Positions 25,754-64,000 of a stretch of 64,000 bases of DNA are shown here, one piece after another. Position 1 is the first letter of the stretch, and each line of letters starts with the position of its first letter. Under the pieces are notes generated by a model. The model had not been told where the DNA came from. It saw only the letters and a program-made list of their open reading frames with translations, and ran no database searches. Position numbers and translations under genes: made by a program. The stretch comes from Mesodorylaimus sp. YZB2_4 (taxonomy: Eukaryota > Nematoda > Enoplea > Dorylaimida > Dorylaimidae), in contig JASANH010001283.1 in the NCBI GenBank assembly GCA_030248295.1, positions 186,001-250,000 of the forward strand, read 5' to 3'.

Positions 25754-25847
25754 TCACATCATGACCTTCCGTCACCAGAAAAGCGCATTAAAAGGCACTG
25801 GATCAATCACACGCAATACACTGGTTCAAATCGGGACCCATCACTCG

Positions 25848-27887: not shown

Positions 27888-27980
27888 GATATCGAGAATA
27901 ATCGATGAAAATTTCGAAATAGGACCACCGTTCGACTCCAGCGCAAAGTGAAACAATGAGTTGCAGGCTTCAAAAGCGGC

Positions 27981-27989
27981 CTTTTATAG
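27981..27989 (-). promoter_or_regulatory. TATA box of BPI copy 1
   Basis: CTATAAAAG on the minus strand, about 100 nt upstream of the start codon. It is identical to the element at 37139-37147 and lies in a conserved GGCCCTATAAAAGGCCGC context. Confidence 0.7.
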
Positions 27990-28045
27990 GGCCGGTCGGC
28001 ACCTGATTTCTGGTTTTCCTGGCAAGTAAATAATAAATCTGGCCT

Positions 28046-28840
28046 ATGTGTTTGCTTTTATTGTTCTTCAGGACACTTGAATGGTTCGATGTTGGAACAG
28101 GCTAGTTTTGCCACTGTTTTTAGGTTTGACAACCAGCACATCTGATGAGTGCTCGGGTGGAAAAGGACCAGTCTAGGGCACCCTGGCAGGGTTTGGTTCC
28201 AAACGAGTCAGGAGAATAGCGCCATGCAAATAAGCCAGGCATCAACTCCTGTGGCAGCACACCCACGAGGACCCTGTCTGCTTGCAAAGTGCGTAGTACT
28301 GGTACGTTTATTTTGACCTTTTACCACATCAGGCAAGCTACTATTAGCACACTTCTTGGGGTTGCTCTGTACGACAAACCTGTGAGACAAGGCCAGGGAC
28401 CATCTCCGTATTCTAAATGACTCAGGGCCATTTACGTATTCGAAATCATTCAGGGAGCATCTCCATATCTAAAACAGTGGGGGACCACTTTCATATCCTA
28501 AACACCCAGGGACCATCACCGTATTCCTCATCAGTCACGGACCACCTTCAACAGTTAGGGGGTCATTCAGTCAGGGGCCGCTCCATCTTTGAATTAGTTA
28601 GAATCGATGGTGGTCATGAGAATCTTTCAATATCAATTATGCGTGCCTTAATGTTCAACATGTACCAGGATGACTTCCACCATCTTGCAGAACTTGACAG
28701 TCGGCTTTGAATTTCAATCAAGCGCAAATCATCGAGAGACAAATTCAAATTAAAGTTTTTTCACCCAACCAGAATCAATCAACTTCAAAAACAACTAAGC
28801 AGCCTATCACCGCATAATCAATCATTGACAAACATTTCAA
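28046..28840. other. Intergenic with degenerate tandem repeat
   Basis: 28390-28600 contains about six diverged copies of a roughly 30-35 bp unit around CAGGGACCATCTCCGTATTC. The rest shows no gene. This begins the spacer of the inverted repeat. Confidence 0.6.
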
Positions 28841-35330: not shown

Positions 35331-37138
35331 AGTGAGCACAAACCCAACCCATGTTTTTTTTTTAAATTGACTAAAACTCAAATAAACCACTTTTGTTCAG
35401 TAAAGTATATCATCAGTATGACGCACAGTTTTGTGAAAATGCTATCTTCCTTCGCTAAGCGACCTGACGGAAAGCAATCTTGTTCGCGCAGAGTTTACTC
35501 AAGAGTCTACCTCGAGAGAGGAGTTGGGAGGGTAGTGGAAGAGTCTCCCCTGGCACCTTCCAGGGCACCAGGTATCACATATGACAGCGCACATAACTCT
35601 GAAAGGTGACCTCACGATGAACACATTTTTGAGCAGTTAATTGAGTCCTACCCTGCTCGCATCTTCATCTACCTTTGGAAAGATCTGACTGCACCTCCAA
35701 ATTCGGTTGGGCATTATCCTTCTCATATCTCAACGGCCATTCCGTTTTCGAGTGGCGACTTCCAAATAACATGACCCCAGCTGAGGGAGCATTTTCACCA
35801 GGGCACATCTTACAAGCTTTGTTCCTCAAACACGGAGATGCTGGTCTCCCGTCATCATATTCACCCGCAAATAGAGCCGCCGTGGCTCACGATCAGTTTA
35901 GACGCGTACACAGGATTTCGGGGTCGGAGGGGGGGGGGGGGGGGAAACAAAAAAATTGCATAAATATGCTATAACTTAGAGCTCAAAGATAAGCGCCAAT
36001 CGCCCGGATGGGTGTTAAGAGCGAAGGCAAAATTTTTGCAAAATTGGCCTCTCTCGGACATAATTTCTTACTAATCTATGAATAAATTTGCACCTGAAAA
36101 AATTTCTTGCCTTGCTGTTGCAAGGCAAGAAATCACTCTGTAAATTCAGCCAACTCAAGCCCCACCCCCTGCCAAAAAGCAAGAGGTTTTTCCATGGATT
36201 CTGACCGACCAAACTTTCAAACTTTCAAAGTTAGGACACTGCTGACCTGATCTCTGACTGCGAGTCGACAAAAGCTCAGGTCAGAGCTCGATATCATCTG
36301 CTGACAGACCATTTCTCAGTTCCGTCAGTCAGACTGACATGTCGAATAAGACTAGCTGGGGTGGGGGGACTGGATACGCTATTTGAAGCACCAGGGTCTG
36401 TCGACTTGAAATCAACGGACATCATATTGCAGTGCCACGCTGTGGAGCCATCTACGTGGTCATGCTAACGAATAAGGCTGACCATATAAGTGGAAAAGTA
36501 GCTTTTTGGGTTGGATTCAAAAAAGGCAGCTAGCGTTTGGTGCAGCCAGTTCAGGCGCATCAGCTGTATATTCCGGAGCATCGAACAGTTTCATATCAGT
36601 ATCAACTCTTATCGAACACCTTACCCAGCTGTGTTGCAGGATTTACGAAGAAACATGCGTTTGTTTTGTTTCTTGACTCAAATCTGAACCATCTGAACAG
36701 CGTTCAGACTACTCCATTCTTATCGCAGTCTTTCTCTGCTACAGAAATCTCTGGTTCTTGCATATACACCAAAAAGCACCATGATGGCTGCATAAAAAGA
36801 ACGAGCGCTCACGCGCATTTGCATTATTTCCTTGGCGTCACTGATTGTGAGCAAAGTTTTCCCATACTTGACCTTTGCAGGGTGGCGAACTGGTTTCACT
36901 TCTCTCCTTATTAAAGAGCAAATTCCATGACAGACAGGTCATAGAGTTTGTGAGTAAATAAACAAATGAGCAGCGATGGAGGTGCACTCAACATTTATTA
37001 CAGCAAATGATGGCGAAACTGGTCCACTTGAACATCAGACCATCAGATTCGCCCAGAAAAAAATGATGGAAACAAAAAAAAAGGGCCAGATTTATTGTTA
37101 TCTTATCACAAGAACCAGGAATCAGGTGCCGACCGGCC

Positions 37139-37147
37139 CTATAAAAG
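37139..37147 (+). promoter_or_regulatory. TATA box of BPI copy 2
   Basis: CTATAAAAG, with a plausible initiator CTCATTG about 30 nt downstream (near 37169). The same element occurs in the other arm, and a related TATA box precedes the third BPI gene. Confidence 0.72.
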
Positions 37148-37240
37148 GCCGCCCTTAAAGCCTGAACCTCATTGTTTCACTTTGCGCTGGAGTCGAACGG
37201 TGATCATATTTCGAAATTTTCATCGATTATTCTCGATATC

Positions 37241-39280
37241 ATGGTAAGGGAATTCCATTTTCTACTTTTGCAGATTACTGGCAACAATCGATTTCAGGCC
37301 TTCCTCGCGATCATCGCGATGACTATTCTGATCGAGTCGAGTTTTGGTCAATCACCGACTCCGACACCGTCAACTCCGTGGCTCGATCCGTTCGCTGATG
37401 GCAAATCGGGCAATCCTGGCGCTCGTATTTTCCTGTGCAAGAAAGCCTTGGACGCCGTTCACGAATACGCAGCCGAGTCTGTCCAGCGCTCGCTCCAAGC
37501 CCTGACGTTGTCCGACTTTTCGCTGTTCGTGGGCACTGGCACTTTGATCATCAAGCCGCCGCGCGTCAGCGAAGCCAGCATGGGCAAGTACGACTACGAG
37601 ATGAACTCGCCGAATCGAATTCGATCTCGATTCTACAACGGTCGATTGGTGGCCGCTGGCGTCTGGCAGTTCAAGCCGACTCTGGGATCGGCCATCGGCA
37701 GCACGTACCAGGCCTCGGTCACCAACGTCGAGCTGAATGCCACGAACGAACTGGGACGGACTGCCGATGCCAAGCCCGCCGTGCGCACCACCCACTGCAA
37801 AGCCTACTTGGGCCAACATCGCATCGACATCAAAAACGTGGCGGCCGAGTTCAGCGTCATCGAGAATTGCGAGATGGACGTTTGCTTGAAGGTGAGTCTG
37901 ACTTGGCACTCGGACCAGCCCCTGTATTTCGAGTGCTCTGCACCCAACGACTGCCTCCTTTGCCTAACCACCACATTCCACGTTTCTGTTTCAGATCCGG
38001 GAATTCTTCGAAAAAGCGTTCTGCGACGTGTTCACCTCGTTCGTCAAAGAAATGATCAACGGCGAATTGCAACAGTACCAGACCAGGGTGCCAGTGCACT
38101 GCGAGGACCACAAAGTGGACTACAGTCTGCAGTGGAATACGCCCACCGTCTCCGGGGACACGAATTGCACCAAGACCGAGTTGGAGGTGAGTGGTTTCCC
38201 GCAACCCGACCTCGGCCGTACTCACACACTTCCTTTGCAGGGCAAGTACATCTGGCGTGGCTCGAGCTCGGTTCCTTTCCATCCGCCCGAAATGCCAGTC
38301 GGAACGCACAATAAAATGCTGACGTTCCAGCTGAGCGACTACACGTTCAACTCGTTGTTGCACCAGGCCCACGTGTTTGGTCGTCAGCACTCGGCCCACG
38401 AGTCGGCCTCGCCATCGACCCTGCAACTGCTCAGTCTGAACTGCGGTGTTCAGGAACAGACGACGCCATCGCCAGTCAAGAATGTCCGCAAACAAGCCAA
38501 AGTCCAATCAAAGGGCATTAATACAGAGCGATTCCCGTGTTTGGGCGCTTTTTTCGACAAGTTGACCAGTTTCGGACCATTTTCGAGCAACGACACGGGC
38601 GATATCGTGTTTAAAAGTGGTCAGAAAGCCATGGCCGTCTACATCGAGTCGGACAAGAGTGGATATTTCGATGGCAGCGGTGGCATCCTCGAAGTTCACG
38701 GACCATTGGTCAAGGGCGGAAATCGACAGGTCCTGGCTCGCGTGGATGTTCGATTGCTTCGTGGCGAATTCAAACCAATTTTCAGTAAATTGAAGTAAGT
38801 ACTGCCTCGCTCTTAGGGTCAGGGCATGTTAGTGCTGTTGATAGGATGGTGTGGCCCTATAGCTTGTAATTCACAGGGGTGTCCCATACCCAGTTGTCCC
38901 TGTCGAAACTGGAATCCTCACATGGCGGGAAAATTGAAATTCGGGGCGTTTACGAGTTGCCTCACTTCATTTTCAGCATCACTGGCATCGTGAAGATCAA
39001 GTCTATCAAGTTGGTTCAACCACCACCTCAGACTCGCATGTTCACGGACGAGTGGATGGATAATCTCGGCCAGTTCGTGGCACCCATCCTCGCCGAGATG
39101 CTCAACAAATTTCTCGATCGCTACGCCCAATTCCCATTGCCACTGCCCGAAAAGTACTCGTGCACCTTGCCCGGTGTGACCATTCTTCCTCGAAGTGTGC
39201 AAGTCAACTGCGACATCCAACGGGTCAGTCGGAACTGCGGATATACGTGCAGTTATAACGGCGTGGCTTGGTGCTGTTAG
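37241..39280 (+). CDS. BPI/LBP-family lipid-binding protein, copy 2 (inverted-repeat arm)
   Basis: Secreted BPI/LBP-type protein. Exons: 37241-37243 (ATG only), 37298-37891, 37995-38186, 38241-38794, 38977-39280; 1647 nt, 548 residues. The first intron, 54 nt, separates the start codon from the signal peptide; splicing gives MAFLAIIAMTILIESSFG and then QSP. The last intron ends at TTTTCAG 38976, not at the earlier CACAG: the third paralogue confirms this and gives NITGIVK in frame. Domains and landmarks are as in copy 1. Residue differences from copy 1 are SGN/SGS, SPN/SPS, AAG/AGG, NAT/NST, CTK/CTM and the penultimate GVA/GGV. The last 20 residues (RVSRNCGYTCSYNG and on) extend past the third paralogue's end. 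Confidence 0.91.
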
Positions 39281-39385
39281 TGATTGGTGCGTTGGTGCAT
39301 TCCGCGTAGGAATAATTTCATTCCATGTATGTGTAAGCCAGTGCCTTTTAACGCGCTTTTTTGGTGACGGGAGGTCATGATGTGC

Positions 39386-42813: not shown

Positions 42814-44664
42814 TCACATTTCCTTCTTTGAAGCGACAGCCGAACTACCTTTCTTGACGCCGCTTGATTTGATTGACATGCCCGCTGGATTCACGGGTTT
42901 CATTGACGTCTTTTTCTTTGAAGCAACTTTCGTCAAGGACTCTTTCATCGCGGAACCATCGCTCGGCACGACTTTGGATTCCTTGTCCGAGACGGAGCGA
43001 ACGCTTTTTAGAAAATCCTTCATCGTCTCATCAGCTGCTTTTTTCTCAGCTTCCCGCATTTTAATGTGAACGAAGATGCCGATGCCAGTGGCGACGATGA
43101 CCGAAACGAAGATGACCAATAATATGATGATGATCCATATTAGGCCGTCGAGGGTCCCCTCTTTGCTATCACCTTTCTTGATCTGCATCCCCGCATCTTG
43201 CCCTTCAGTCTTCGGTTCAGGGGGATGATTTATTTTCTGCTTACGATCCGGCGGATGTTCAGTCTTTTGACTGGAGGAGGACTCAGGTGGATCGCGACGA
43301 CTCAGGTGACTGGAAGAAGACTCAGGCTGCTCTTGACGAGTCAAGTGGCTGCTGGAAGAAGATTCGGGAGTCTCTTGACTAGTCAGGTGACTGGATGACG
43401 GAACAGGGGACTCATGACGATTCAGGGCACTGAAAGAAGATTCAGGCGGATCACGACTGCTCAGGTGACTGGATGACGACTTAGGCGGTTCTTGACGAGT
43501 CAGGTGACTGGAAGACGACTCAGGCGGTTCTTGACGAGTCAGGTGACTGGAAGACGACTCAGGCGGTTCTTGACGAGTCAGGTGACTGGAAGACGACTCA
43601 GGCGGCTCAGTCGGGCATGGATCGCAGACGAAGATCTCGGGACAGTGTTCCAGTTCTATGGACTCTTCCTTTGGTTTGGCACCTTCGCGTTTCACCATGG
43701 TCATCGGACCGCAAACAACGCTGCAATTCGGTTTCGGGTTGGCCCATGGCCATTTTTTGTCGCATATGCTCTCGCAGTCGACGATCGTGCAGTTGTTGGA
43801 CGGTGCCTTGTCTTGGCACTTCTCTTGGCTGATGTACGGGTGCTTGACTGCTACTCGCCAAGTAACCAAGTCACAGTTGGCTTGCTGCTCGTCGGCGTAG
43901 CGACAGATCTTCTTCCATCCGCACAGCTCATGCACGATATCATTAGCTACTTCAGTGAGGGTTGCGACGACGTCGTCCTTGCGTTCTGTCTTAAAGAAGA
44001 ATAACTTGTTTGAACCGCCATCGAATTCGCTGGCTTCTTTCTTGGCCGCCACTTTAACAAAATCTTTCATTCCCACAGCTTCGCGCCAAGTCAGCACATA
44101 GGTCAATACTCCTTTAGCTCGCATCTCTTCTAGCTTACTGGCCGACAGGGAAGGCTGGAAACTTTGGCGAGGGTACATGATGATGATGACTTTGGCTCGA
44201 GTGGTGTCGTTGTAGTTGAAAATTTTTTCATCAATCAAACGCAATGCGTAATTAAACTCGAAATTGTAGAAATGGTTGACGTACATACCGCGATCCAATT
44301 TCGTTGTGCTTGGTACCCAATTCGACATCGTTTTGATAAAAGCATCATGATCGCCCGTCAAGTTCTTTAGAATTTTCGATTTGCGTGGATCTTCGCCGCC
44401 GTGAATAGAGCGCAACTCGTCATCATCACACACAGGATCGACCACAGCCACCCTTACCTTGTTACTTCCGATTTCAAAATTCGCTGGGAGGACCTCGGCG
44501 TAGGCTTCACCAAAACCGGAAGTCGGCAGGCTTACGTCCCAAAACGCGGGAAAGACGACAATATCGATCTTGCCATCGATTTTCGTGTGACAGTTGACCA
44601 GAGATCGTCCAACATAAACGATCAATAGTAGAGTGATCATCCAGCGAATCCTTCGTTTCATCAC
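42814..44664 (-). CDS. vWA-like type I membrane protein with Ser-rich repeats (paralogue 1)
   Basis: Intronless, 616 residues; exact function unknown. Order: signal peptide (MITLLLIVYVGRSLVNC region), a von Willebrand A-like fold (KIDIVVFPAF strand; NFEIGSNKVRVAVVDP; NYALRLIDEKIF; RAKVIIIMYP; KGVLTYVLTW), a Cys-rich module (CDKKWPWANPKPNCSVVCGP and IFVCDPCPT), nine 13-residue repeats of the type EPPESSSSHLTRQ, a Lys/Glu linker, one transmembrane helix (about residues 500-525) and a basic Ser/Lys-rich cytoplasmic tail. The metal-ion site of true vWA domains is not recognisable: no DxSxS follows the first strand, and the usual TDG is MYP. It therefore probably does not bind ligand through a metal. 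Several NxT/S sites suggest glycosylation. It is a clear paralogue of the gene at 61.7-63.1 kb, which lacks the repeats. Confidence 0.85.
   Translation of the reverse strand: MMKRRIRWMITLLLIVYVGRSLVNCHTKIDGKIDIVVFPAFWDVSLPTSGFGEAYAEVLPANFEIGSNKVRVAVVDPVCDDDELRSIHGGEDPRKSKILKNLTGDHDAFIKTMSNWVPSTTKLDRGMYVNHFYNFEFNYALRLIDEKIFNYNDTTRAKVIIIMYPRQSFQPSLSASKLEEMRAKGVLTYVLTWREAVGMKDFVKVAAKKEASEFDGGSNKLFFFKTERKDDVVATLTEVANDIVHELCGWKKICRYADEQQANCDLVTWRVAVKHPYISQEKCQDKAPSNNCTIVDCESICDKKWPWANPKPNCSVVCGPMTMVKREGAKPKEESIELEHCPEIFVCDPCPTEPPESSSSHLTRQEPPESSSSHLTRQEPPESSSSHLTRQEPPKSSSSHLSSRDPPESSFSALNRHESPVPSSSHLTSQETPESSSSSHLTRQEQPESSSSHLSRRDPPESSSSQKTEHPPDRKQKINHPPEPKTEGQDAGMQIKKGDSKEGTLDGLIWIIIILLVIFVSVIVATGIGIFVHIKMREAEKKAADETMKDFLKSVRSVSDKESKVVPSDGSAMKESLTKVASKKKTSMKPVNPAGMSIKSSGVKKGSSAVASKKEM
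43262..43611 (-). repeat. 39-bp in-frame coding repeats
   Basis: Nine tandem units encoding variants of EPPESSSSHLTRQ. The three at the high-coordinate (N-terminal) side are almost identical, suggesting recent expansion at that end; one unit carries an extra Ser codon. Confidence 0.9.
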
Positions 44665-45446
44665 GATTTCTTTGATTTGAAAAATTGTTGCTTCCGACGA
44701 TTTTTTTAATTGTCGACTTTACACTTCGATAAGACTAGTGAACACAACCGTGCATAAACAAAGCAGAAAGCAGATTGTGAGTGAGGGCTGCCCATGCTGC
44801 TGATGTCCACATTCTGTCACTTTACACTGCTAGAGGGGTCATTGCCAGAGCACGCGATCTTAATGCAGACTCCTCTCACCGGACTTATCGTGTGATTTTG
44901 TAAAGAGAGTAGAGAGTATGACAAGACGGCAAGGATCGCTCCAAGAAAGATGGAAGGACGTAACCTGTATGCCTTCTGTGTTCCCTGTGCTATGCCTCCC
45001 ATCCAAGAGCTGTGTGCAGTGCGGCATCTCAGGACCAGCCTAGTCGGCCTGGGCAACACTACTGCTGTCTTGTCTGTCTCTGCCTGAACGCATTCTTCGG
45101 CATGGCTTCAGGTTTTAATCAAACTTTATGCTGGCCTTGCGTGACGGATCGCCCGTTGTTTGCTTTGCACTGCTATTCATTTCAGTGCGGTTTCAGAAAA
45201 ATCAATATCTCAGGGTCCGCATGATGATTTTGTTTCTGTTTTTTGTTTCGCCATTCCGTTCTTCTTTCGCCGGTTTTCGCAGCGGAGCATCCTGAACCAG
45301 AGGCCTGTTCAACGGAGCTCACGATCATAGTCGTTCTAAACTGGTTCAGGTCGTCAATTTACCTGTGTTTGATGCAGAATATAGATGCAGCCTTTTCGTT
45401 CGATCGAATGACTTATCACTATGCAAATTAGATGGATCCACAAGGG
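44665..45446. other. Intergenic between vWA-like gene and third BPI gene
   Basis: Divergent promoters of the vWA-like gene (minus) and BPI paralogue (plus) should lie here. Only the TATA box at 45447 stands out. Confidence 0.5.
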
Positions 45447-45744: not shown

Positions 45745-48700
45745 ATGGTAAGCACATTATTTTCCATGACCCTAACTTTGCATCATCGATCGATCTCTGC
45801 TTTACTTATCGATTCAGACATATCAGTCTATAACTGATCTAATATACTACTTTATTAGCTGATTCAGATAGCAGCTGATTCAGACGAGCTCGACTTTGGG
45901 ATCAGATGATCAATGATAGAATCGATTTCTGGTGATCACATGATTACTAGCCCAAATAGTGATCCTTTTGTGATCTTGTGATCATTGGCGGAATCGATGA
46001 TCATGCTGAATGGAGGGGACGTTGGAGTGTTAGTCGATCGTTTTGTTGTCGATTTAACTATCGGTTTTTCACTCTGAGCTGATCGAGCCCTTTACGTTAT
46101 AGATAGCCAATCGACAGTCGATTGACCAATTGATTTCTACTGTGCTGTTTGCCTGTGTTCTCCTTGCACCTTATTGTCACTGGTTTCCTGTTTTAGCGCT
46201 CCATCATGCTTCTTCCCGTTCTTCTGGCGATGTCATACACACGAGCAAAGGCCTTCACGACGCAGCCGACCTCTCCGAGCACGAAATCAAGCACAACTTC
46301 GACCCCGTCCACATCGCCGACCACCACTCCACCATGGATCAATCCTACGCTGGGCGGCAAGGTCGGCAATCCGGGCGCTGCTATCTTCCTGTCCAAGAAA
46401 TCCATCGATGCTGTCCATTCGTACGCTGTAAGTGGAGTGGGACGAGCTATCCACGCTATCCAGTTTGGCGAACTGAGTCTTCCCAGTGGTCTCGGTCTGC
46501 TCACTATCAAACCACCACGAATCGTCGAATCGAAATTGACCAACTATCAGTACCAGTTGCATGAACCGAACCGAGTCTGGTCTCGTCTGTTCGGTGGACG
46601 ATTGGTGGCCGATGGCGTCTGGCAATTCAAGATGGATGGGGACAAGGAGCCAACAACGGGCAAATACAAGGCCGTGATCACTGGGGGCGAGTTGACGACA
46701 AATAGCCAATTGGGAAGAAGCATCGATGCCAAGCCTGCCCTGAAATCCATCGATTGCATGGCCAATTTCTCTCAAATGCGTGTTGACATCGAGGGCTCGG
46801 CCAATTTGACATTCGTGGACAGCTGTGATACATCGGTTTGTGAGAAGGTAAGAAAATGGGCGCCGGATATCATAGTCACATAAGCCTTAGGTTTGCTATC
46901 CCCAAATATTTGAAGCAGACCAGTGAAAATTAAGCTTAGTGGGGGATGTTTGAAAGCTTAAGTTTCAAGCTGACGGAGGATGCTCTCTATGTGATCGTTA
47001 GTTTCTGTAGGAGGCCCTGCCTGATGTGTTGAAATCCACCAGGAATCCAGTTGAATCCATGTTGTTCCTCTAGGATTCCAACAGCTTTCACGAGGGGTCC
47101 TCTTGGAGTCTAAGTGGTATCAAGTACGATAGACTCACGTACATCCGCCAGGTTATCAGCTAGATCTCCAGCCTGCCCGCAGAACCTAGCGATACCATAG
47201 AGAGCATCCTACGCCAGAGCGAGGAGCCTGGCGGCTGACTAGCATGGTTGTAACAGGACTGGCTTCGTATTACTGAGGTAGTGACCAGTGGAGCTCTTGC
47301 AACGCCAAAAACCCAGGGTAGCCTACGAAGCCTTCCGACCTAGTACATGGCTGAAACGCCACCCTAACGGGTGATGCTCCCAGCTGCTGGCTCCATACAG
47401 AGTATCGATTGCCAGTCGCGCCTTTACATGGTTAGTATACCGAGTGCGCTAGACCATTCAATCCATTTCAGGCTCGCAAATTCTATGGAGACGCTATTTG
47501 TCAAGCTATGAACGCATTCGTCCAAGAATCGATCAATGCTCCCTTGACCACGTTCCCAACTCGTTTCAATTTGTCCGCTGACCACAAGTTGGACTACGCG
47601 TTATTGGCCAACGAACCGAAAGTCACAAAGGATGGAGTCTGGTCTGGGTTAGAGGTAAGGCTGGTGTTGGTTGGGACTTGGTTGCGGCTGTGAGGCCTAT
47701 CAGTGTTTTCATTTAAGGGCAAAGTCCACTGGCGCGGCATGTCAGCTGTCCCTTTCAATCCCCCACCGCTAACTTTGGTCGACAAGAAACGCATGCTTAC
47801 GTTTGGAATGGCCGACTATACTTTCAACAGTCTTTTTCACCTAGCATATTCGCAAGGTTATCGATTCTCGGCTGCCGATCTCCTCAAATCGCCGTCAATG
47901 CAGAGCCTGCTTTCGCTCAATTGTAGCTCGTCGAGGAAACCAATTCGTAAAGTATCGCCTATGCATCTACATCGATTCGATCCAGTCTGTTTGGGTTCAT
48001 TGGTGGAGATGTTGGGCGAGAGTGGTTATCAATATTTGGCCAACGAGACGGGCGATATTGTGTACAAAACTGAACAGAAAGCGGCTTCTATTTTTATATT
48101 ATCTGATCGAACAACTTATTTCGACGGCGGAAATGGCAATTTGGAAATTTATGGACCAGCTACTGGCCGAATTGGGAAACGAAAGTTGCTGGCAAGCGCG
48201 GCTGTTCAACTATTGCGGGGAAAATTCGAACCAAAATGGAATGGAGTAAAGTAAGTCCAGCTGACTATTGGGCAGGGGGTGGGCTCTGGACGCTGTCATG
48301 ACAGCTTACGATTAGTGGGGGTTTGATGTTCTCGAATGTTGGGTATTTCGTCTGGTAGTCGACCCACTGCGCTGACGATAAGCCGATAACTAAGAATGCC
48401 ACCCGTCAGGTTGATGTTTCAGTGATGGACTAGGTCGGAGGCCTGTTAGTTTCGCCTTTACCCAGACCCCCCAGTCAGTCATTTTTATAATGTCACCTCT
48501 TACATTTTGATTTCAGTGTCACTGGCGCAGTCAAACTTGTTCGAATCACCTTGGACAAAGGCATTGGTCAAGCATCGTCTATGAACGACGATTGGCTCAC
48601 CAAATTTTCCTGCTTCGCCATGCCCATTCTGACAAAAATGTTCAATGAATTCTTGAATAAATTCGCTCAATTTCCAATCCCGATCTTACAAGGATTTAAA

Positions 48701-49828: not shown

Positions 49829-50590
49829 AGGCGCGCAGCCAGGGGGGTTGGCTCGTGAGGGGGGGGGGGGGGGCACGCAAGACATATAACCATCCGTTTG
49901 AATGTCCGCCAGGGGGAGGGGGATGTGCCCCTTTCCCGCCGGAGGCGAAATTTTTGAAAAATCGCCGTTACAAGACACGTTTTCAAACCTGACCTATATA
50001 CCTAGGTACCCTCAACAAAAACTAGTTACATTGGACTAAAAATTCATACAGCTGACTACACAATATTATGCTGTAGCTCATTCAGTAACCAGTCAGCATC
50101 TTGAAGATCATGATCGAACTCCCCTCTGCTGTCGTCGCTGCTGAAACCGATTCCACTATGACAAGATTGCTCATCAGCTTCTTCCAATCTCTCATTTCCT
50201 TGGGGTTTGTCCCCAAGTTCATTTTCTCGCAAGGTTGAAGCGGCGGGGCTTCATGAAGAATCGGTTGACAATTTCCTCTGGGCTTGCTGTGATCTCCCAA
50301 TGACTGTGGATTAAACCTATACACTGGCAGAAATGTGCTAAGTAGCAGATAAATGAGAATAGTGTCTGCTTCAAGGCACATTATTCGGCTGACTTCTAAA
50401 AGGATGTCAGCTGGCTAAGCTTACAGTACAGCGATTGCATGACTCTTTATCGTGTTGTACTGCCTTTCTATGCCTCCGCCTATACTCACAATAAGAGCTC
50501 TACAATTATGCTCTATTTTTTTAATATGTCTGGACTTTTCACCCCGGGCCATGGCCCCCTGCCCCCCCCCCTCCCGCTGGCTGCGCGCAG
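49829..50590. mobile_element. hAT-like non-autonomous foldback element (tentative)
   Basis: The left end GGCGCGCAGCCAGGGGGG is matched by an inverted right end CCCTCCCGCTGGCTGCGCGC. The block starts and ends next to GTGGCCCA / GTGGCCTA, a possible 8-bp target duplication, which would fit hAT elements. Internal G and C runs mirror each other. No transposase frame is present. The right flank overlaps the first bases of the SINE at 50588, so the element may have inserted at the SINE edge. Confidence 0.45.
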
Positions 50591-50748
50591 TGGCCTAGCG
50601 GGTTAAGGCGTCTGCCTCTCACGCAGGTTGCGCACTTAGAGGGGAGGGTTCGACTCCCGCCTCGGTACAAAATGATTGTCAAATATGTGTTCCTTAGCCC
50701 TCGAGTGCGCTGTACAGTGCTTGGCTATGGATAAAGTATGACATGACA
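50588..50748 (+). mobile_element. tRNA-derived SINE, copy 2
   Basis: Same head and tail as 41379-41550. A box (TGGCCTAGCGGGTTAAGGCG), B box (GGTTCGACTCC, near 50648) and the shared tail with CCCTCGAGTGCGCTGTACAG and GGATAAAGTATGACATGACA. It diverges by scattered substitutions. Confidence 0.82.
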
Positions 50749-51437: not shown

Positions 51438-54400
51438 CTACAAAGCCCACACGGTGAATTGGTTCCTCTCCGAAATTATCATTCTTTTTGAAAAATTACT
51501 CACTTTTTCGTTAGAGAAAGCGTGGTACATTTGAATAAATATACCAAGTAGAACATTTATGCCGAACACCACAGTGAATAAAGATATCCTTTGATGATAG
51601 ATGGCCGTCCACGACAAAAACCAGGAGGCGAATGCTGCTCCAAACACGAAAATCAATCCAGCGTGGGCCAGTCTACAAGAACTGTTATTTTGTGACTGTG
51701 GCGGTTAGTCTATGTTCTGTCTGACCTGCATGAAGTGACAGCAAACGACTGGCTGCGCGTTAAGCCGTATCCTGTAGCCTCGATCAAAATCACAGTTGGC
51801 CAGGCGATAATCGCTATTGGGAGAAACGTCGCCAGCAACACAGGGTGGCCAGCATTGACCCAGCATCTGTAACAAATAACCTTGTGCACCAGCCGACTCA
51901 CCCCTGCAGCAAGTACGCACGAAAAGTCAGACATGAGTCTACCGTATGATGTCGCCCCAGTTATGGTCACAATGGATGCAGGCAGACCTGAAACAGAAAG
52001 TATTCACAGCTTTGCGTCATGCTCAATATGCTCACTCCGCTCACCCCAAGACACCCCGAGTGCTGTTCTCAATCCAATGAGTGCATTTTGACCAATGACC
52101 ACATCAGTGAGGACTGCGTAGACGTGAAGCGCTTCCATGGCAAGCAACATGAAATTCACAGTGAAAAAATATTGCAGACCGAGTGCTGCCAGGTTGCAAA
52201 CTTCCTGAAACCAGTCACTGTCAAATCGAACAGTCGCCCGTAGCGTGTTCTTACGTGGCTGAAACGACTGTCGTCCCGACTCGCGAATGTCAGCAGAAGT
52301 ACATGCGATAGGAACAGGCTGATGTCTTGGTTCACGTGGATGACCTGTAGATAATAGGTGTGCCTGGCAAATAATAAGACTGTTTTTGGAAGACTCTCGC
52401 AATGGCCTTTAAAATTCTCCTCACCGCAAGCAAACAAAAATCGCCACGGATAATCCAGTGCCGACCATGATCCATGCGCATCCGATATTCATTATTGCAT
52501 CAGCTACAGCTCGTTGAGTACTGGTCATTGGATTCTAGAATTAAAAACGGATATTTTTTGCATATATTTTTGATCCATTTATCCAGAGGGCTTCAGATCA
52601 TAGTCGAGATTTATCGCTCCAGTGATTTCCTGCTGTAGCCTCCTAGCCTTGCACACTGAGGGACATACAGTAATTCATGCCTAAAGTGCGAGCAGCTAGC
52701 TAGAGATCCCCACATGACATGCTGGAAAGTGAATGAAGATCGAGAGCGCAGTGACAGGGTGACTTACGCATTCTGGTAGTTTGCACTCGTCGACCTCAGT
52801 TTCAGCAATACAGCCTTGTCCAGATGTATTGGATGGCTGACGTGCTCGTTGCCGAAGCACACCGGATCCGCACGTTGAACTGCAAGGGGAATACGGACCC
52901 CATTCATCGAGTTGACACCTCGCTGAAAGTAAGTATTTTATGCACTTCGCAAGATAGCCATGGAGCGCACGCGTACTTTGTCCAGGTGAGATATTCCCAG
53001 ATTTGGTGCCTTCAGGAGATGACTCTGGCTTTGACATGGTTATTTTGTTGCTGCTGCTGCTTTTTGCGGTGTCTGGGGGCTTATTGGAGGTTGCTACCTG
53101 GGCAGGATTAGTGAAAAATAGTGGTTTAGTGATCATGACTGTTTCAGTGCGCGTCTGCTTCGTGTTGGCTGCGGGGCTAGGTGCTAATATGCCATCCCTG
53201 GTTACTGTAACCTCGTGTCTATCTTCTTGCACAGGTGTGGTATGGTATGCAGCTGTAAGGTTGTGGTCTACATCCAAGGAGTTTGTTAAAATAAGACCAG
53301 TCGAAGGTTTTGTGCTCCCGCTGCTGGGCAGATGTTTGTCAGGCAACGAAAGACTGTTTGCAGAGGTCGTTGCAAAGTTAGACGATCTTGTCGCTGCTTG
53401 TGTTGCGAGAACTGCAGCTGGATGAGTAGAGGAATACACTATTCCTGTTGACTTTTTTAAGACACTCATTAATGGCGTAGGAGGGGCATGTGCGCGTGAC
53501 TCCGCTGCAGCTTCAGGCTTCTGATACTGCTGTGGATACACGGGATGCAAGATTGGCTTTGTAACTTTTACATGAGAGGCAAAAGGGGCATGATGACCTC
53601 TTGATGGTGCAGGTTTTGAAACCACCTTCATGGCCTCGGAGGCTGGTCTTGGCGTGTGAGGGCTAAGAATGCTTGAGAATTGAAGAACTGGCGGAGGAAG
53701 CGTGATAGACGCCATCCTATGGCTTGATGGCATGTTGGAAACGATTTCAGGATCAGGAAATGGTCGCTGACTGTGTGACCATAGCAGTCCAAAACTATGC
53801 TTGGGAACATTTGTTGAACTGGGAAACAACTTTTCGCTCTGCGAGGTAGACCCTGTGTGGACGGTGGGTAATGTCACTGGCACAAAGCTTTTATGCTGTG
53901 AGGGCTCTGCTGTGACCGTTTGCACATCCAAAAGAGTTGGTGGCACTGACAAGGCGGAAGCAGTAGCTGTTACAGGGCTTCTTTGGGAACGAGTGGAGAT
54001 GCAACTCGATTCAGTGCTCATGGACGGATGCAACTGTGATGGTAAAGGTAGGGTTTGCTGGGGAGTAAAACTGCCTAGTGGCACTTGCTGAACTGATGCA
54101 GTTTTGTCTGCAACTTTTCTTGGTTCCTGTCGAGCTAAAGTGGGATCTTCTCTTGAAGGAGTATTCGGTAGCTCTTTTGTAGCAATTCTGTCCATTGTGG
54201 TCTCGACGTCAGTTGAGGAAATATTAGGACCCAAAGTGGGCTCGAAACCGTCTAGGCTACTTTCGGTCTTTTTCACTGGATCACCACTGAAATCAGTACT
54301 GGGTTTCAAGGGATCTTGTATCACCTGGCCAGGTCTTCTGGTCATTTGGACGGAGTCAGTACTGAATGCGGCACTAGGGAGTTGGCCTTGTATCGTGGTC

Positions 54401-57400
54401 TGTGAATCGGTGCTCGATCTTTCCTTAACTGGGCCACTAACATCGGTTAGTACTGGCGTATTCTGCTCTGTTATTGCCATTGATGCAGGAGGAAGGATGT
54501 AGCTAGTAATTGGGGATAAGGTTCCCACTTCGTTTGATGCTGTACTTTTCGGTGGAGTTGTGGACTGAGCCATGTTAGTGCGTAAGCTCACATTTTCCTG
54601 CTGTGGATAAACAGATTTGGATGCTGGCAATGGTGACTTGCTTGCTGCTGTTGAGATCGAGGACGCGTCTGCTGTTGGATGCACTACTGGTGGTGAAGGG
54701 GCTGGTGTCAGGGTCTTAAATGCAGTGACACTACTCTGGACCCTGTGAAAAGAAGACACCAGCGCTGTAACTGCTTCCTGATTTTCGCGGGCTACTGTGC
54801 TCATCATTTCAGTGGCACGATGGGCAAAGGTATCTGTAGAGGGGATTTCTAGCGTCGAAGCCGCCGAGGACGCTGTGCCAGATGCTCCAATATACTGCAG
54901 TGTAATCTGATCTGTGGTGCGGATACTACTTAGGACGCCTTGCGAAAATCCCTGCGAGCTGCTGCTGAGGAGATTGATGAAGGAAGGTGGATTGGTGAAG
55001 TCTTCTTGCTCTGGATTTTGACTTCTTGATACCAACTCTCCTGCTTTTTCATAGAGCGGGTCTGGGTAGACAATGGTATGAATAGCTTTGGAGCTGGTTT
55101 GATCACTTGTTGTTGCAGTGAGATGATATGGGCGATGTGAAGACAAGTTTAGTACTTGCGCAGTGACATGCTTTTGAGTAGCTGATGTTTGTGATGTTTC
55201 TGGGGCTGTTGTCGATGTGCTAAGATGCTGCCATGTGGTTTCTTCTGTCGAAAAGGGTGAAGTAATGCTATATGCTATTATGGTGTCAGCAGTATCAGCC
55301 ACTGCAACCGTGCTGAAGGCTTGTGTTGCAACTGCACTGCCTGCTCCTTCTAGCGTGGGTAAATTGACGTCATGCGCTCGTGAGGAGGCCAAGTCTTTCG
55401 CTGTCTCAGTCGTTGAACAAGTACTGCAGTCCATTGACTCCGGTGTACTCTGTGCCTCTCCAAGTATAATTGACTCGTCTGTTGATGGTGTCATTGCAGT
55501 GGCAGTGTCAGAGCTTAGGGCAGTGCTGTAGTCGGATTTGACGTGCATAGCCTGCGTCGAACTTTGTGGGCCATTTTTTGCAGTGCTGTACCGACTTGTG
55601 GTGGGAATCAGACCGTCAGCAAGTGCCGCATGAGGATGTAAAGAATATGCCGGCGTTTGTGAGCTGACATTGTCCTTAGAAGATGCATCTGATGTGTGTG
55701 ATGTTTCTGGAGAATTTGTCGATGTGATGAAATGCTCCGATGTGGTTTCTACTGTCGGAGAGCGCGAAGTAATATTACGAGTTGCTGATGTGTCAGCAAT
55801 ACCAGCCACTGCAACCGTGCTGAAGGCTTGTTTTGTCACTGCACTGCCTGTTCCATCTAGTGTGGGCGAACCAACGTCATGCGCTACTGATGTGGACAAG
55901 TCTGCCGCAGGCCCAGTCGTTGAACAAGTATTGCAATCCTGTGTTTCCGCAGTACTTTGTGCTTCACCTAGAATAACTGAATCGTCCAGAGAGGGTGCCA
56001 CTGCATTGGCAGTGCTGTAGCGGGACTCAGTGAGCATAGTTTGAGCCGAATTGTGAGGGAAGCTGGGTGCAGTACTGGAAAGACTTATCAAGGGTTTCGG
56101 TCTGTCAGCAAGTGAAGTATAAGTTTGGTTTTCTGCTGTTTCGTCTGCTGAAATATTCTCACTTACGCCGTAGGATGAGTTCAGCACGCCTTGTGTCGTG
56201 CCATAAGAAGATGCCTGTGCTTTTCCCCTTTGGCGAGCGGTTGCAGCGGGCTCACCCTCACTTGTGACTGGAATGTTGCCCGTTAAAGTCTGCATGGTAG
56301 ATTGAAGTTTTGTAAGGCTTGATGTGGATTCCTGCGCGAAAGTGGATTGAAATGAGGTCGATATCGGGGAGGTTGAATAAACTGAGGCCCCAGCCGTTCT
56401 TCGTTCCGTACTAGAACTCGAGCTGCTAAACATTGTTGATGTGCTCGCTTGTGGTCGCGTTGTGGTCGCTGTATGTGCCTCTGGGGATATGGTCAGTAAA
56501 AGGGTGCTTGGTCCAATATTTTCATACCTTGTGGAGCTGGTCATTGATGAGCTTAGTATGGGAATCCTCGCTTTGCTTGCGAAATCAGACTGCTCAGGCG
56601 AGCTGCGTGCTGTGTTAGCGACTGTGGAAATAGTTGATAGCAACAGCGATGTTTGCGCAAATTCCGACTCAGACATGCTGGGCGGCGAGGTCACTTGTGC
56701 GTGGGCTGGCATGCTTGAGAACTGCAAATGTGTGCTAGTTGAGACAGGCACATGTGTTGAGTACGGAGTAGATTGGGTTTGCATAGATGTTGGACTTGCG
56801 ATGTGATCAGATGTTCTGAATACCAGGTCTTTCGTTGTACTGCGGACAGCAGGAGAAGTCAGTCCATTTAAAAAACTTGTGGGACCCCCATTGCTGATCG
56901 AGGGAACAGCAGCTGTAAGTTCCGAAGAAATCTGGATGTCTGAAGTAGAAGCCTCGAATGCTGAAACGAAACTGGTTGATATCAGCTCCTCGGGCTGAGA
57001 AGGCAATGGTGTCAAGGAAAAGGTCGATGTGGCTGCAAAGGAGCTGCTGAAAAACAGCGCTGCTGACACTAATGAGGAATCCGATTGAGTTGTGGTGCCA
57101 CCATCAGTGGATGAAGGCTGAACAGTACTCGAGACAAGTGGCAGGGACGAGGAATATGACGATGCCAGGTTTGGTTGAGTGGTGGACGGATAAGACGAAG
57201 CAGTTGTGACGACGGTTGGAGGAGGATGGGGTGTGGTTTCGACCAGATACTGTATGTGCTTTTGGCAGCTTCACTTGTGGCTGAAGCAAGGGGATGCGTT
57301 GAAGTGGAGAGTGGGGTTGGTGATGTGGAATCCTGGCTTATTGAGCTTGTCGTTGCAGTGCCTTGCATTGTACTTGTGATTTTGTCGATATCCTCCTGCG

Positions 57401-59851
57401 CATCTGTCTCAAATGACGTTGTACTGCTTGCCAGGGATGTCAAAACTCCTGCGCCCGCAATTACTGACCAAGAACTTTCAGAGTAAGTGCTTGTCGCTGC
57501 AGCAGAGCTCACAGCAGGAGTTTGGTTTGAAGTACTTGCTGCGAAGAAAAAAGCTGCGACAGGAACGAGCGTAGTGATCGTAGGAACCACTGTCGGTATG
57601 ACTGTGCTCGGGGCTGGCGTGGCTGCGATAGTGATTGAACGATATGCTGCAGTCGCAGGATTTGTGCTTTCTGATGACGGTTGCGTCAATATACCAGCTA
57701 AGCCAGCATACGCACTGGTGGCGGAGGCTGCCCCAGTATTTACGCTGATGGTGTACGGGTATGATGCCTCTGGTGAAGGCAGCGCGGTATTATAGACGCG
57801 GATAGAGCTTGTAGGGGTCGCTGATGTGCTAGATGAGATCGCCGTCGAGGAGACTGCACTGGATGTGATCGACGCCGAGGAGGCTGCACTGGATGTGATC
57901 GCCGTCGAGGAGGCTGTGCTAGATGAGATCGCCGCCGAGGAGGCTGTACTGGATGAGATCGCCGCCGAGGACGCTGCACTGGATGTAATCGCCGTCGAGG
58001 ACGCTGCACTGGATGAGATCGCCGCCGAGGAGGCTGTACTGGATGAGATCGCCGTCGAGGACGCTGCACTGGATGAGATCGCCGTCGAGGACGCTGAGCT
58101 AGATGAGATCACCGCCGAGGAGGCTGCACTGGATGTGATCACCGCCGAGGACGCTGCAATGGATGAGATCGCCGTCGAGGACGCTGCACTGGATGAGATC
58201 GCCGCCGAGGAGGCTGTACTGGATGAGATCGCCGCCGAGGACGCTGCACTGGATGTAATCGCCGTCGAGGACGCTGCACTGGATGAGATCGCCGCCGAGG
58301 AGGCTGTACTGGATGAGATCGCCGTCGAGGACGCTGCACTGGATGAGATCGCCGTCGAGGACGCTGCTTTGGATGAGATCGCCGTCGAGGACGCTGCACT
58401 GGATGAGATCGCCGTCGAGGACGCTGCTTTGGATGAGATCGCCGCCGAGGAGGCTGTACTGGATGAGATCGCCGCCGAGGAGGCTGTACTGGATGAGATC
58501 GCCGTCGAGGAGGCTGCACTGGATGTGATCGCCGTCGAGGAGGCTGAGCTAGATGAGATCACCGCCGAGGAGGCTGCACTAGATGTGATCACCGCCGAGG
58601 ACGCTGCAATGGATGAGATCGACGTCGAGGACGCTGCACTGGATGAGATCGCCGCCGAGGAGGCTGTACTGGATGAGATCGCCGCCGAGGACGCTGCACT
58701 GGATGAGATCGCCGCCGAAGAGGCTGTACTGGATGAGATCGCCGCCGAGGACGCTGCACTGGATGAGATCGCCGCCGAGGAGGCTGCACTGGATGAGATC
58801 GCCGCCGAGGAGGCTGTACTGGATGAGATCGCCGTCGAGGACGCTGCACTGGATGAGATCGCCGCCGAGGAGGCTGTACTGGATGAGATCGCCGTCGAGG
58901 ACGCTGCACTGGATGAGATCGCCGCCGAGGAGGCTGTACTGGATGAGATCGCCGTCGAGGAGGCTGTACTGGATGAGATGGTTGTGGTTGAGGTGGCGGG
59001 TGTGGTTGTGTACTTAACCCCGAACGTTATGTCGCATGGCCCAGCGATAGTCGAGCATGCTGTGGCTGCGGGAGGCGGTCCCGGGCAAATGGCTGGTTCG
59101 GTAGCGCAGCCTGAAACAGGTGTAGACTAAGAGAAGGGCAAGAAGGCGAGACAAAAAGGAAGAAACTTACCATATTCGCACATGACGCCTTTTTTCGTGG
59201 AACAAGAGCTTGCAAATATTGTGATGTTTGTTCTGAGATAAATTCCGACTACTTTCAATCCGAAATACGCAGCGAGACAATTCGGATGGTTTGCCTCTGA
59301 ACAGCTTCGGTTAAGTAAGATAGGGATTCTTGAAACCTGTGATCCTTCAGTGTCTGCATCGCTCATCCAGCAGAAATCTGTTAGGTGACAGCCTGCAATA
59401 GGAGCCCTGGCTCCAAGCCACACCGTATTTGGAACGGTTCGCAAACCACCGTTATTGTTGCCATTGCGAATTGACATTCCATACGCCAAAAACGTCAAAT
59501 TGTTCATAACTTCGCGAAGCTCATCATCAGTCTGAAAAATAGCAATTCTGCCACTCGCCACAGTCGAATCGAACCAGGTAGCCGTTTGTTTCGCACAAAA
59601 GTTTGATTGGGTTGTCCAATTTGCTACATTATCCGCCATGAGTACGTAGCATTTATCGTTGTAGAAGAAAGAAGGTGTGTTTTTCCTTCCAAATGCAGCG
59701 CAAAGCTTGGACATGTCGCCTGGAAATCATCTTTTTTCAAGATTGCAATTACAGATCCAGCGCAGGCAGAGAACTTACACGACTGCGATGCCGTAATTAG
59801 TGCAGCCACTGTTACTGCGCGGAGAAAATGCCTTGGGCCAGTAAGAGTCAT
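51438..59851 (-). CDS. C-type lectin / mucin / TSP1 / adhesion-class 7TM receptor
   Basis: Putative giant cell-surface GPCR, about 2600 residues. Exons (minus): 59851-59779, 59719-59171, 59110-52977, 52922-52768, 52534-52425, 52363-52255, 52204-52045, 51987-51726, 51681-51438. Signal peptide; C-type lectin-like domain (KCYVLMADNVANW, CWMSD, GVMCEYG); a Cys-containing linker; 38-39 ten-residue Ser/Ala repeats; a long Ser/Thr/Pro mucin; a TSP1 module (DEWGPYSPCSSTCGSG); then seven helices with adhesion-family signatures: IHVNQDISLFLSH (TM2), FFTVNFMLLAMEALHVY (TM3), GVSWGLPASIVTI (TM4), WVNAGHPVLLATFLPIAII (TM5), INVLLGIFIQMYHAF (TM7). No GAIN domain or GPS site lies between TSP1 and TM1. The mucin exon changes frame once near 57.22-57.28 kb (one base short, or an unseen intron). 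The tail may instead splice at GTGAGT 51503; no further exon was found. Confidence 0.78.
55155..56035 (-). repeat. Two ~130-150-residue direct repeats inside the mucin
   Basis: Two copies (about 55160-55545 and 55680-56030) share LGEAQST, a Cys pair in CxTCSTT, AHDV, PTL(D/E)G, SAV, QAFSTVAVA and PETS. They represent a segmental duplication inside the Ser/Thr-rich region. Confidence 0.8.
57811..58980 (-). repeat. 30-bp coding minisatellite, 38 units plus one degenerate
   Basis: Tandem units of exactly 30 bp. The minus-strand coding frame gives the ten-residue unit ISSS[TA]ASS[AT][AV] (codons ATC TCA TCC AGT ...). Variants of GCC/GTC and GAGGAGGCT/GAGGACGCT alternate, giving blocks of higher-order similarity. 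Because no unit contains a stop in several frames, long artefactual open frames appear on both strands. Confidence 0.95.
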
Positions 59852-61700: not shown

Positions 61701-63143
61701 TCACTTCTTTTTTCCAGAAGTGCCAGCTAATCTGCTCTTCTTCGCTTTACCAGACTTGGTCGACTTTCCTGCACGCTTTTCAGATTTGGTACTCAGTTTA
61801 CCAGACGATCCTTTCGTTCGTGGTGCTTCCACCTTGGATTCAATTTCCGACAAGTCGGCGGCCGTTCCTTGTTGGGCTCCTGGTGCTCCCATATAAACGG
61901 ACATGGAGATGACACTTTCCATGAGTTTCTCAATTTTTTTGTTAGCAGCCTCAGCTTCAGCCTTGCGTTTCTTCATGATGATGAAGACAGCGGTGCCAAA
62001 GGCGACGAATGCGATCAGCATGACGACGATGATCCCGACAGCGAGCCAGATCATCGTGTTGATTCCCTCCTCACGATCAGTCGGGCATGGATCGCAAATG
62101 AAGATATCCAGGCAATTATGCAGTCGCCAGGCATCCCTTGGAAGAGTACCTTTGCGTTTCACCATCGTGATTGGACCACAGGCTTTAATGCAATCGGGTC
62201 GCGGTCCTTCCCACGGCCACTTGTCGTCGCACTCACGCTTGCAGTCCTCAATGACGCAACTGCCCGTCGGCGTTTCCAGATTGTTCTCACGCGCGTCGAT
62301 GTACACGTTTTCGTCGGCTTGCCAAGCTTGGAATTCGCAAATGGTTCGATTTTGATCCTTGAAGCGGCAGATTGTCTTCCATCCAGTCAGATCGCGCACG
62401 ATGGCTTCCTTCACTTCCAAGAGCGCCGGGATCGTGCTGGATTTGTTGTCTGTTTCAAAGAAGAATACTTTGTCTTTGCGTTCGTCCGCCAGTTGAAAGG
62501 CTTCTGCGTAGGCGTCGGCGCGCATGAAAGGTCCTGGTTTGTCGAGGACAGTTTTTTTCCAAGTCAGCACGTAGACCAGAACACCTTTTTCGCTCATCTC
62601 ACGAAGAATGGATCTTGCCTTGTCGATGAAGTTGCCTCGGTCAGCATGAAACATGATGAGTACTTTGGCTCGTGTGTCGTCTGAGTAGTTGAACATTCTG
62701 TCGACTAGTTGAACGACATATTTCGTATCGTAACGTCGATATTTCAGGTCATATCGATAATCTGGTTGTGGACGGGCAGAAATAGTCCAGTTGTAGATCC
62801 TGATGCCCTCGATGAACATATTCTGATCTCCCGTCAAATTCGCCAATACCTTGTATGTGTCAGGATCCTTGCCGTCCTTGTTTATAGTGTTAAATTCTGC
62901 TTCGTTGAGCACAGGATCCACCAGTCCCAAGCGTACCATATCGTCCCCGATTTCAAAGCTCGATAGCAATACTTCCTTGAAAGCTTCCGCGTAACCTTCT
63001 TGCGGGAAGCCAAATTCTGGAATTGCAGGGACTGCGATGATATCGATCTTGCCTTTGATTCTCTTTTGACCTTCGACCGTCGATATCTCAAGCAGCGCAA
63101 TTAACAGGACAGCGATTATCGAGCGACCGTTGCATTCGATCAT
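61701..63143 (-). CDS. vWA-like type I membrane protein (paralogue 2)
   Basis: Intronless, 480 residues from ATG 63143. The in-frame ATG at 63278 would add 45 residues ahead of the signal peptide; 63143 is preferred because the hydrophobic segment (SIIAVLLIALLEISTVEG) follows at once. Order: signal peptide, vWA-like fold (KGKIDIIAVPAIPEF; SFEIGDDMVRLGLVDPV; RAKVLIMFHADRG; KGVLVYVLTWKK), Cys-rich module (CDDKWPWEGPRPDC, ACGPITMVKRKG, CLDIFICDPCPT), transmembrane helix (NTMIWLAVGIIVVMLIAFVA) and a Lys/Ser/Gly-rich tail. As in its paralogue, the metal-binding residues of vWA are not preserved. The Ser-rich repeats are absent, so the Cys-rich module abuts the membrane. Function is unknown; an adhesion or receptor role is only an inference. 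Confidence 0.84.
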   Translation of the reverse strand: MIECNGRSIIAVLLIALLEISTVEGQKRIKGKIDIIAVPAIPEFGFPQEGYAEAFKEVLLSSFEIGDDMVRLGLVDPVLNEAEFNTINKDGKDPDTYKVLANLTGDQNMFIEGIRIYNWTISARPQPDYRYDLKYRRYDTKYVVQLVDRMFNYSDDTRAKVLIMFHADRGNFIDKARSILREMSEKGVLVYVLTWKKTVLDKPGPFMRADAYAEAFQLADERKDKVFFFETDNKSSTIPALLEVKEAIVRDLTGWKTICRFKDQNRTICEFQAWQADENVYIDARENNLETPTGSCVIEDCKRECDDKWPWEGPRPDCIKACGPITMVKRKGTLPRDAWRLHNCLDIFICDPCPTDREEGINTMIWLAVGIIVVMLIAFVAFGTAVFIIMKKRKAEAEAANKKIEKLMESVISMSVYMGAPGAQQGTAADLSEIESKVEAPRTKGSSGKLSTKSEKRAGKSTKSGKAKKSRLAGTSGKKK

Positions 63144-64000
63144 TTTCTCAAGCAATTCGATGGGAAGTTCTTCTTGAACGAGATTGTTGCAGAATTTGAA
63201 GAGGCGTCGGAAGAGGGTGGTTTCGGTACAATCGCACGCGCACAGAAAGGCACAAAAGAGTGAGTGATCTGCGCTCATTGAAAACGAATAGTGGGTGTAC
63301 TTTACAGTGTAAAGTGCAATACACTGAGAAGTAAATGCTGTAAAAGTAGTAAAGTAGCTGTGCTGCGATAGTTCAATAGTTGGATATCATATGATTCTGT
63401 ACTGTACAGTAGTCCTTCGTCACCTATACAGTGAGAAACTCAAAGCAAAATTCTTTAGCTCAAGCCCAAGCTCAAGCTCAAGTGCTCTACTGACCAAATT
63501 GGAATTAGTGAAAACAGTGCACGCAAATGAGACGCAGGTTGGCCCTGATTTAGTCGGTTTCGTCTGGCGAGACTTTGGGGAATCCGTACAATTTTTAGTC
63601 CACCAATTGATAATTAGAAGACAATTGTTTATCAACGGTAAAGCGCAGAAAGATAAACTAAGGAGGCAAAAGTAAGTTTCAAATGCATTTATTAACAGAA
63701 GGTGTCAGAATTACACGAATCACCAAAGACCTTATCGCAGTCTGTTTTTCAAGCACAGAATATATTATGGATCTACTTACTATACCATGGTAAAGTAGAT
63801 CCATGGACTATATTACCGCTCAAATAGCCACTTGGGTAAATGTCACAGCTCTCTGCGTAAAAGTTAGTTTCAGCGTCCTCTGCCAGTAGTGAATTAGAGC
63901 TCCGTTTGAGATGTGAAGTAAAACAGTCGACAATCATTCAGTACGTGCTTCAAAAAGCTGAAAAGAGCTATCGAATGTGTCTCCCCAGCATGCTTGCTTT
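63144..64000. other. Upstream of vWA-like gene to window end
   Basis: Presumed promoter and 5' UTR of the vWA-like gene. A plus-strand open frame at 63391-63675 encodes a Ser-rich stretch from an AGCTCA repeat and has no family features. No other gene is supported. Confidence 0.45.

Follow-up and report, generated by a model that had tools for sequence, protein, structure and literature searches.

How is an adhesion-type receptor switched on if the part regarded as its switch is missing? For adhesion G-protein-coupled receptors (GPCRs), this switch is regarded to be the self-cutting GAIN domain with its tethered agonist. The question is raised by a gene at 59851-51438 on the minus strand of the window, by which we mean the whole 64,000-nt stretch of Mesodorylaimus sp. 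YZB2_4 contig JASANH010001283.1 that was analysed. Along this gene we read a signal peptide, a C-type lectin-like domain (CTLD), a Cys linker, a Ser/Thr stalk of ~2,000 residues, a TSP1 domain and a seven-transmembrane (7TM) domain of predicted class B2. An earlier note on this DNA had claimed the same exon chain as one gene. The chain was borne out from the DNA, the same order was found in paralogues, and the lectin, stalk, TSP1 and 7TM exons very probably belong to one gene. On balance, we favour the view that it is one member of a large class B2 family that lacks GAIN and GPS, carries one or more CTLDs, a mucin-like stalk and TSP1, and would signal as an uncut chain. The features of the gene are as follows (TM, transmembrane helix; ECL2, extracellular loop 2).

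59779..59851, minus strand: exon 1, which holds the start codon and encodes the signal peptide MTLTGPRHFLRAVTVAALITASQS; the corresponding stretch of paralogue G2 reads MFLTGPRHLLSLVALGAVIMVSES
59171..59719, minus strand: exon 2, CTLD
52977..59110, minus strand: exon 3, Cys linker (CATEPAICPGPPPAATACSTIAGPCD) followed by the Ser/Thr-rich stalk
57832..58979, minus strand: tandem array within the Ser/Thr-rich stalk, 30-nt unit, 38.3 copies
57072..57270, minus strand: overlap of one frame with the next within the Ser/Thr-rich stalk, a small indel or an unannotated intron
52976, minus strand: candidate donor at the 3′ end of exon 3, with another candidate donor 6 nt beyond
52768..52922, minus strand: exon 4, TSP1 domain with C-terminal CKLPEC
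52535..52767, minus strand: intron between TSP1 and TM1, 233 nt, phase 0
52425..52534, minus strand: exon 5, juxtamembrane stalk of 14 residues (NPMTSTQRAVADAI) and TM1
52255..52363, minus strand: exon 6, TM2 (IHVNQD)
52045..52204, minus strand: exon 7, TM3 through the start of TM4
51921..51987, minus strand: exon 8, TM4 (WGLP) and first half of ECL2
51726..51866, minus strand: exon 9, CW motif of ECL2 and TM5
51438..51672, minus strand: exon 10, TM6, TM7, short tail and stop codon

ECL2 is split by an additional intron.

The junction between TSP1 and TM1

The junction was assessed by spliced alignment from TSP1 to TM7 at 26 loci, the window copy and 25 others. At all of them, a single phase 0 intron separates the TSP1 and TM1 exons; its position is identical at 25 loci and shifted by a codon at one. 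This intron measures 51-72 nt at 23 of the 26 loci, and 232, 233 and 722 nt in paralogue G2, the window copy and paralogue G3, respectively. The alignment also gave extra introns near TM1 (C83_223, C83_336) and a different last intron (C589_32, C151_90), which might be artefacts. TSP1 probably occupies a separate exon. An acceptor was obtained at 26 of 26 loci, a count that is biased because the script chose the best AG within 30 nt upstream of TSP1, and a matching donor was listed for 18 of the 26.

From the last Cys of TSP1 to the Gly of TM1 we counted 17 residues at 24 of the 26 loci, and 19 and 20 at the other two. In the GPS receptors on contigs C58 and C72, the cleavage site lies 28 residues from the corresponding Gly and is followed by TTFAVLM; compared with these, a tethered-agonist stretch of this kind is absent between TSP1 and TM1 of the family. 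The earlier note had stated that the 233-nt intron is too small for a GAIN domain and contains no GPS-like Cys/Trp motif. Consistent with this, no GPS-like sequence was seen in the three sense frames of the long introns of the window copy, G2 and G3, and no GAIN-coding DNA was found between TSP1 and TM1. The fixed, short junction leaves no room for a GAIN domain or a tethered agonist.

In the whole genome, GPS gave 12 matches at E<=1, and none of them lies on the 14 contigs that carry a 7TM anchor of the family. Seven of the 12 serve as a positive control, each having a 7tm_2 match on its own strand no more than ~800 nt downstream (C58, C72, C130, C249, C2, C16 and C1, the C1 match scoring below the curated cut-off). 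Our data indicate that GAIN is almost certainly absent throughout the family. At the 26 loci where the junction was read from DNA, the missing GPS is not a gene-model artefact.

A large family in one genome

The genome searched comprises 145 Mb on 1,067 contigs, and Wnt matches on eight contigs mark it as that of an animal. About 36 7TM anchors of the family were found on 14 contigs, including C39, C83, C62, C589, C5, C406, C151, C217 and C56. This number is approximate because the anchors were hand-picked among the matches listed, with long single-frame matches of 22-28 % identity (C24, C159, C688 etc.) and a few others excluded. CTLD matches occur at 61 places, of which 52 precede an anchor. 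TSP1 was found upstream of 27 of the 36 anchors, a CTLD upstream on the same strand of 24, and both upstream of 18; the TSP1 counts are lower bounds because 150 of 214 candidates were scored. Each CTLD-bearing anchor has one to seven CTLD matches upstream, so the number of CTLDs may vary from gene to gene. Here it is assumed that where more than one CTLD precedes a 7TM, all of them are part of a single gene, and the number per gene is uncertain because CTLDs were assigned to anchors by strand order alone, with a longest span of 40.6 kb. At 492-510 kb of C39, seven CTLD matches stand ahead of a single 7TM anchor.

In G2 and G3, both on C39, the DNA is contiguous from CTLD to TM7 and has the order of the window gene, with the signal exon seen only in G2. 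A diverged member on C62 carries the second half of the CTLD, the Cys linker and the stalk in a single frame of 2,014 codons, with TSP1 and 7TM downstream. Two of the 26 loci, C83_314 (L043, C83:314300-315600) and C589_19 (L049, C589:19100-20400), have a 7TM interrupted by in-frame stops and are likely pseudogenes. A locus on C161 with a wider spacing between TSP1 and 7TM looks degenerate on reading and was kept out of the 26.

Class of the 7TM domain

The assignment of the 7TM to class B2, also proposed in the earlier note, agrees with the profile searches. The window 7TM matches PF00002 (7tm_2) at 1.5e-13, and a search of the PDB with a ten-member 7TM profile gave 58 sequences at E<=0.01, with the adhesion receptors ADGRL3 (3.4e-15) and ADGRD1 (9.9e-15) at the top. 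Class B1 receptors start at 1.8e-6 (GLP1R), and the adhesion receptors ADGRG2, ADGRF1 and ADGRG3 rank below GLP1R. Invariant in all ten aligned members are the Trp of TM6, the Glu of TM3, the Cys-Trp of ECL2, WG.P in TM4 and N...G in TM7. The invariant TM6 Trp aligns with its counterpart in TM6 of ADGRL3 and of ADGRD1; Trp 6.53 has been termed a toggle switch (PMC8421042). Judged from its sequence, the 7TM falls within class B and is of the adhesion type (B2).

Selection and the juxtamembrane stalk

Ratios of nonsynonymous to synonymous substitution (dN/dS) were determined on 24 intact copies, from which the 14 pairs closest to each other were taken, some copies being shared between pairs. For TM1-7, dN/dS lies between 0.07 and 0.19 in the 14 pairs, and for TSP1 it is <=0.28 in 12 of them. 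Between the window copy and G2, the values are 0.12 in TM1-7 and 0.24 in TSP1. The 7TM is under purifying selection, and TSP1 likewise in most pairs. The juxtamembrane stalk follows the consensus (N/T/S/K)-P-M-(T/S)-x-x-E, in which Pro is kept in 23 of the 24 intact copies, Met in 21 (Leu in the other three) and Glu in 21.

The extracellular domains

The domain encoded by exon 2 has a CTLD fold, which was missed by Pfam. The calcium-sugar motifs of sugar-binding C-type lectins, EPN/QPD and WND, were not seen when the translated exon 2 was read by eye; the domain may bind sugar in another way. The CTLD is less conserved than TSP1 and 7TM together, at 53 % versus 80 % for G2 and 40 % versus 69 % for G3. 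The stalk of exon 3 is long, rich in Ser and Thr (37 % S+T), sparse in Cys and Trp and repeat-bearing. By composition and repeats it is mucin-like, and it is probably sugar-coated. TSP1 shows its Trp/Cys pattern and scores 33.2 bits with PF00090 against a cut-off of 21.6. Judged on domain makeup alone, a long multidomain ectodomain of the adhesive type is present.

Points against the proposed family and its conservation

Several observations weigh against our interpretation. TSP1 was not matched at nine of the 36 anchors and CTLD at 12, and the family was read from the DNA of one genome. The GAIN model, which gave six genome matches and none on the 14 anchor contigs, is weak in this genome with only one of the six above cut-off, so that the GPS search and the short gaps have to carry the claim that GAIN is missing. 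The long stalk frames of G2 and G3 stop ~250 and ~360 nt short of TSP1, respectively, and within exon 3 of the window copy the reading frame of the stalk changes. In the two remaining pairs, dN/dS of TSP1 reaches 0.41 and 0.91. The values for the juxtamembrane stalk, which with 14 codons is too short, are noisy and exceed 1 in two pairs, and several pairs have dS >1. Finally, the window copy carries Gln at the position of the consensus stalk Glu.

The frame of the G3 stalk ends in a G-rich low-complexity stretch (L035, C39 ~553.2-553.5 kb), possibly an insertion. For the frame change of the window copy at 57270-57072, an intron was considered as the cause. Of 45 candidates, the top-scoring one is 518 nt long with a GTGAGC donor, and none is convincing.

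How the receptor might signal

In the favoured explanation, the CTLD tip would capture a microbial or self ligand far from the membrane, and the mucin-like stalk would act as spacer and tether. Binding, clustering or pull would then pass via TSP1 and the short juxtamembrane stalk directly to TM1 and ECL2, and the receptor would signal as a single uncut chain without exposure of a tethered agonist. Direct gating by TSP1 and the juxtamembrane stalk is a tentative proposal, for which we would give slightly less than even odds. Mechanical pulling by the lectin-tipped stalk is a hypothesis, and we give about equal odds to a pattern receptor of the lectin type that would work by clustering or taking up its ligand. 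Such a role in pattern recognition or uptake would be compatible with direct signalling by TSP1 and the juxtamembrane stalk, and we regard it as nearly as likely. Still more tentative is the broader idea that the whole family dropped the tethered-agonist switch, and that in one uncut chain, with TSP1 seated on the 7TM, the conserved 14-residue stalk took its place and is worked by CTLD tips that have diversified on their mucin tethers. If the switch was indeed discarded, the clustered loci would supply the animal with a repertoire of signalling receptors that carry lectin tips and recognise self or microbes. With a large, constrained family lacking GAIN beside canonical GPS receptors, gating without a tethered agonist becomes directly testable.

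Alternative explanations

The alternative that survives best is a scavenger or endocytic pattern-recognition receptor, in which CTLD binding would drive uptake with little G-protein signalling. The clustered expansion of the loci, the lower conservation of the CTLD relative to TSP1 and 7TM in G2 and G3, and the precedent of placozoan CTLD GPCRs (PMC6321704) are in line with this. On the other hand, the core residues of the helices are kept and the 7TM is strongly constrained. An uptake role would be compatible with the favoured explanation, and we consider a predominantly endocytic receptor possible yet rather unlikely.

It is improbable that the window copy is a young pseudogene within an otherwise functional family. 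The frame change in its stalk exon and the 7TM stops at two of the 26 loci (C83_314, C589_19) would fit such a copy, but an unseen intron or an assembly error would look identical to the frame change. Moreover, TSP1 and 7TM of the window copy are free of stops, and the low dN/dS towards G2 in TM1-7 and TSP1 argues for constraint.

Two genes might be present instead of one, the first coding for a secreted protein of lectin, mucin and TSP1 parts, the second for a short 7TM receptor whose start would be an ATG in the juxtamembrane stalk (the M of NPM). A Met is found at this third stalk position in 21 of the 24 intact copies, and read-through of the TSP1-TM1 intron of the window hits a stop. Nevertheless, the stalk Met is unlikely to be a start codon because the preceding Pro is kept in 23 of 24 copies though it would be untranslated, and Leu replaces Met in three. 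The site and phase of the intron between TSP1 and the stalk are kept at all 26 loci, and gaps of 51-72 nt offer little space for a gene end plus the next promoter. A split into two genes is thus very unlikely. Least probable of all is a GAIN domain that another protein provides in trans or that a distant alternative exon encodes. The DNA alone is compatible with this, but the 14 anchor contigs are free of GPS and GAIN matches.

Relation to known receptors

The order CTLD, mucin, TSP1 and 7TM without GAIN was not found in the open-licence literature, among the matches listed. The earlier note knew of no described receptor of this layout. That claim was too strong, since a CTLD on adhesion-family GPCRs (placozoans, amphioxus) and a missing GPS (sponge) have each already been described. 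Trichoplax sp. H2 has 36 CTLD receptors, 28 of them secretin/adhesion GPCRs (PMC6321704). Like the family described here, these placozoan receptors are numerous and carry a CTLD ectodomain on a class B 7TM, and pattern recognition and uptake have been proposed for them; the main text of that source never mentions GPS, GAIN, TSP or mucin (PMC6321704). An amphioxus adhesion GPCR with a Lectin C-type domain (PMC2246102) has the CTLD in common with the nematode family, but differs in its other extracellular domains according to PMC6321704.

In the sponge Amphimedon, 12 of 40 adhesion GPCRs lack a GPS, for which the authors allow loss or incomplete gene models (PMC4302439). These 7tm_2 receptors share the missing GPS with the family but are described with short N-termini (PMC4302439), whereas the family has a long ectodomain and its junction was read from DNA at 26 loci. 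The family also bears on the possibility, left open by that study, that faulty gene models account for a missing GPS, which is not the case at these loci. ADGRA1/GPR123, named as the sole adhesion GPCR without GAIN, likewise has a class B2 7TM, but no N-terminal domain is listed for it (PMC8421042), in contrast to the lectin-like domain, mucin and TSP1 found here. In choanoflagellates, nearly all adhesion GPCRs have GAIN (PMC12716839).

ADGRG4/GPR112 resembles the window gene in that its folded tip is carried by a mucin-like Ser/Thr stalk of great length, and differs in its pentraxin-like tip, its HRM and its GAIN with tethered agonist (PMC10687090). It has been proposed as a force sensor in which shear is sensed through the GAIN domain (PMC10687090). 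As the family described here has no GAIN, the last step must differ from that proposed for ADGRG4.

Other features of the window

On its 5′ side, the receptor gene is adjoined by a gene at 61701-63386 on the minus strand. This gene and one at 42814-44718, also on the minus strand, look alike: each consists of a single frame and encodes a large ectodomain with what by eye is one TM helix; neither gave a Pfam family above cut-off. At 17474-19837, a Fibronectin type III exon (PF00041) precedes a frame that contains a TM-like segment, and the two may belong to a receptor gene. Scans of the window for Rfam families and tRNAs gave no match. A short tRNA-like stretch at 50580-50680, ending in ggttcgactcccgcc, on which ARAGORN makes no call, is possibly a tRNA-derived repeat. 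The window also contains a near-perfect inverted repeat (25836-28058 and 37070-39292) with arms of 2,223 nt that are 98 % complementary and separated by 9,011 nt. Each arm holds near-identical open frames, and LBP/BPI/CETP models match the right arm with scores under the cut-offs. A third, diverged copy of the repeat arm lies at 46197-48254.

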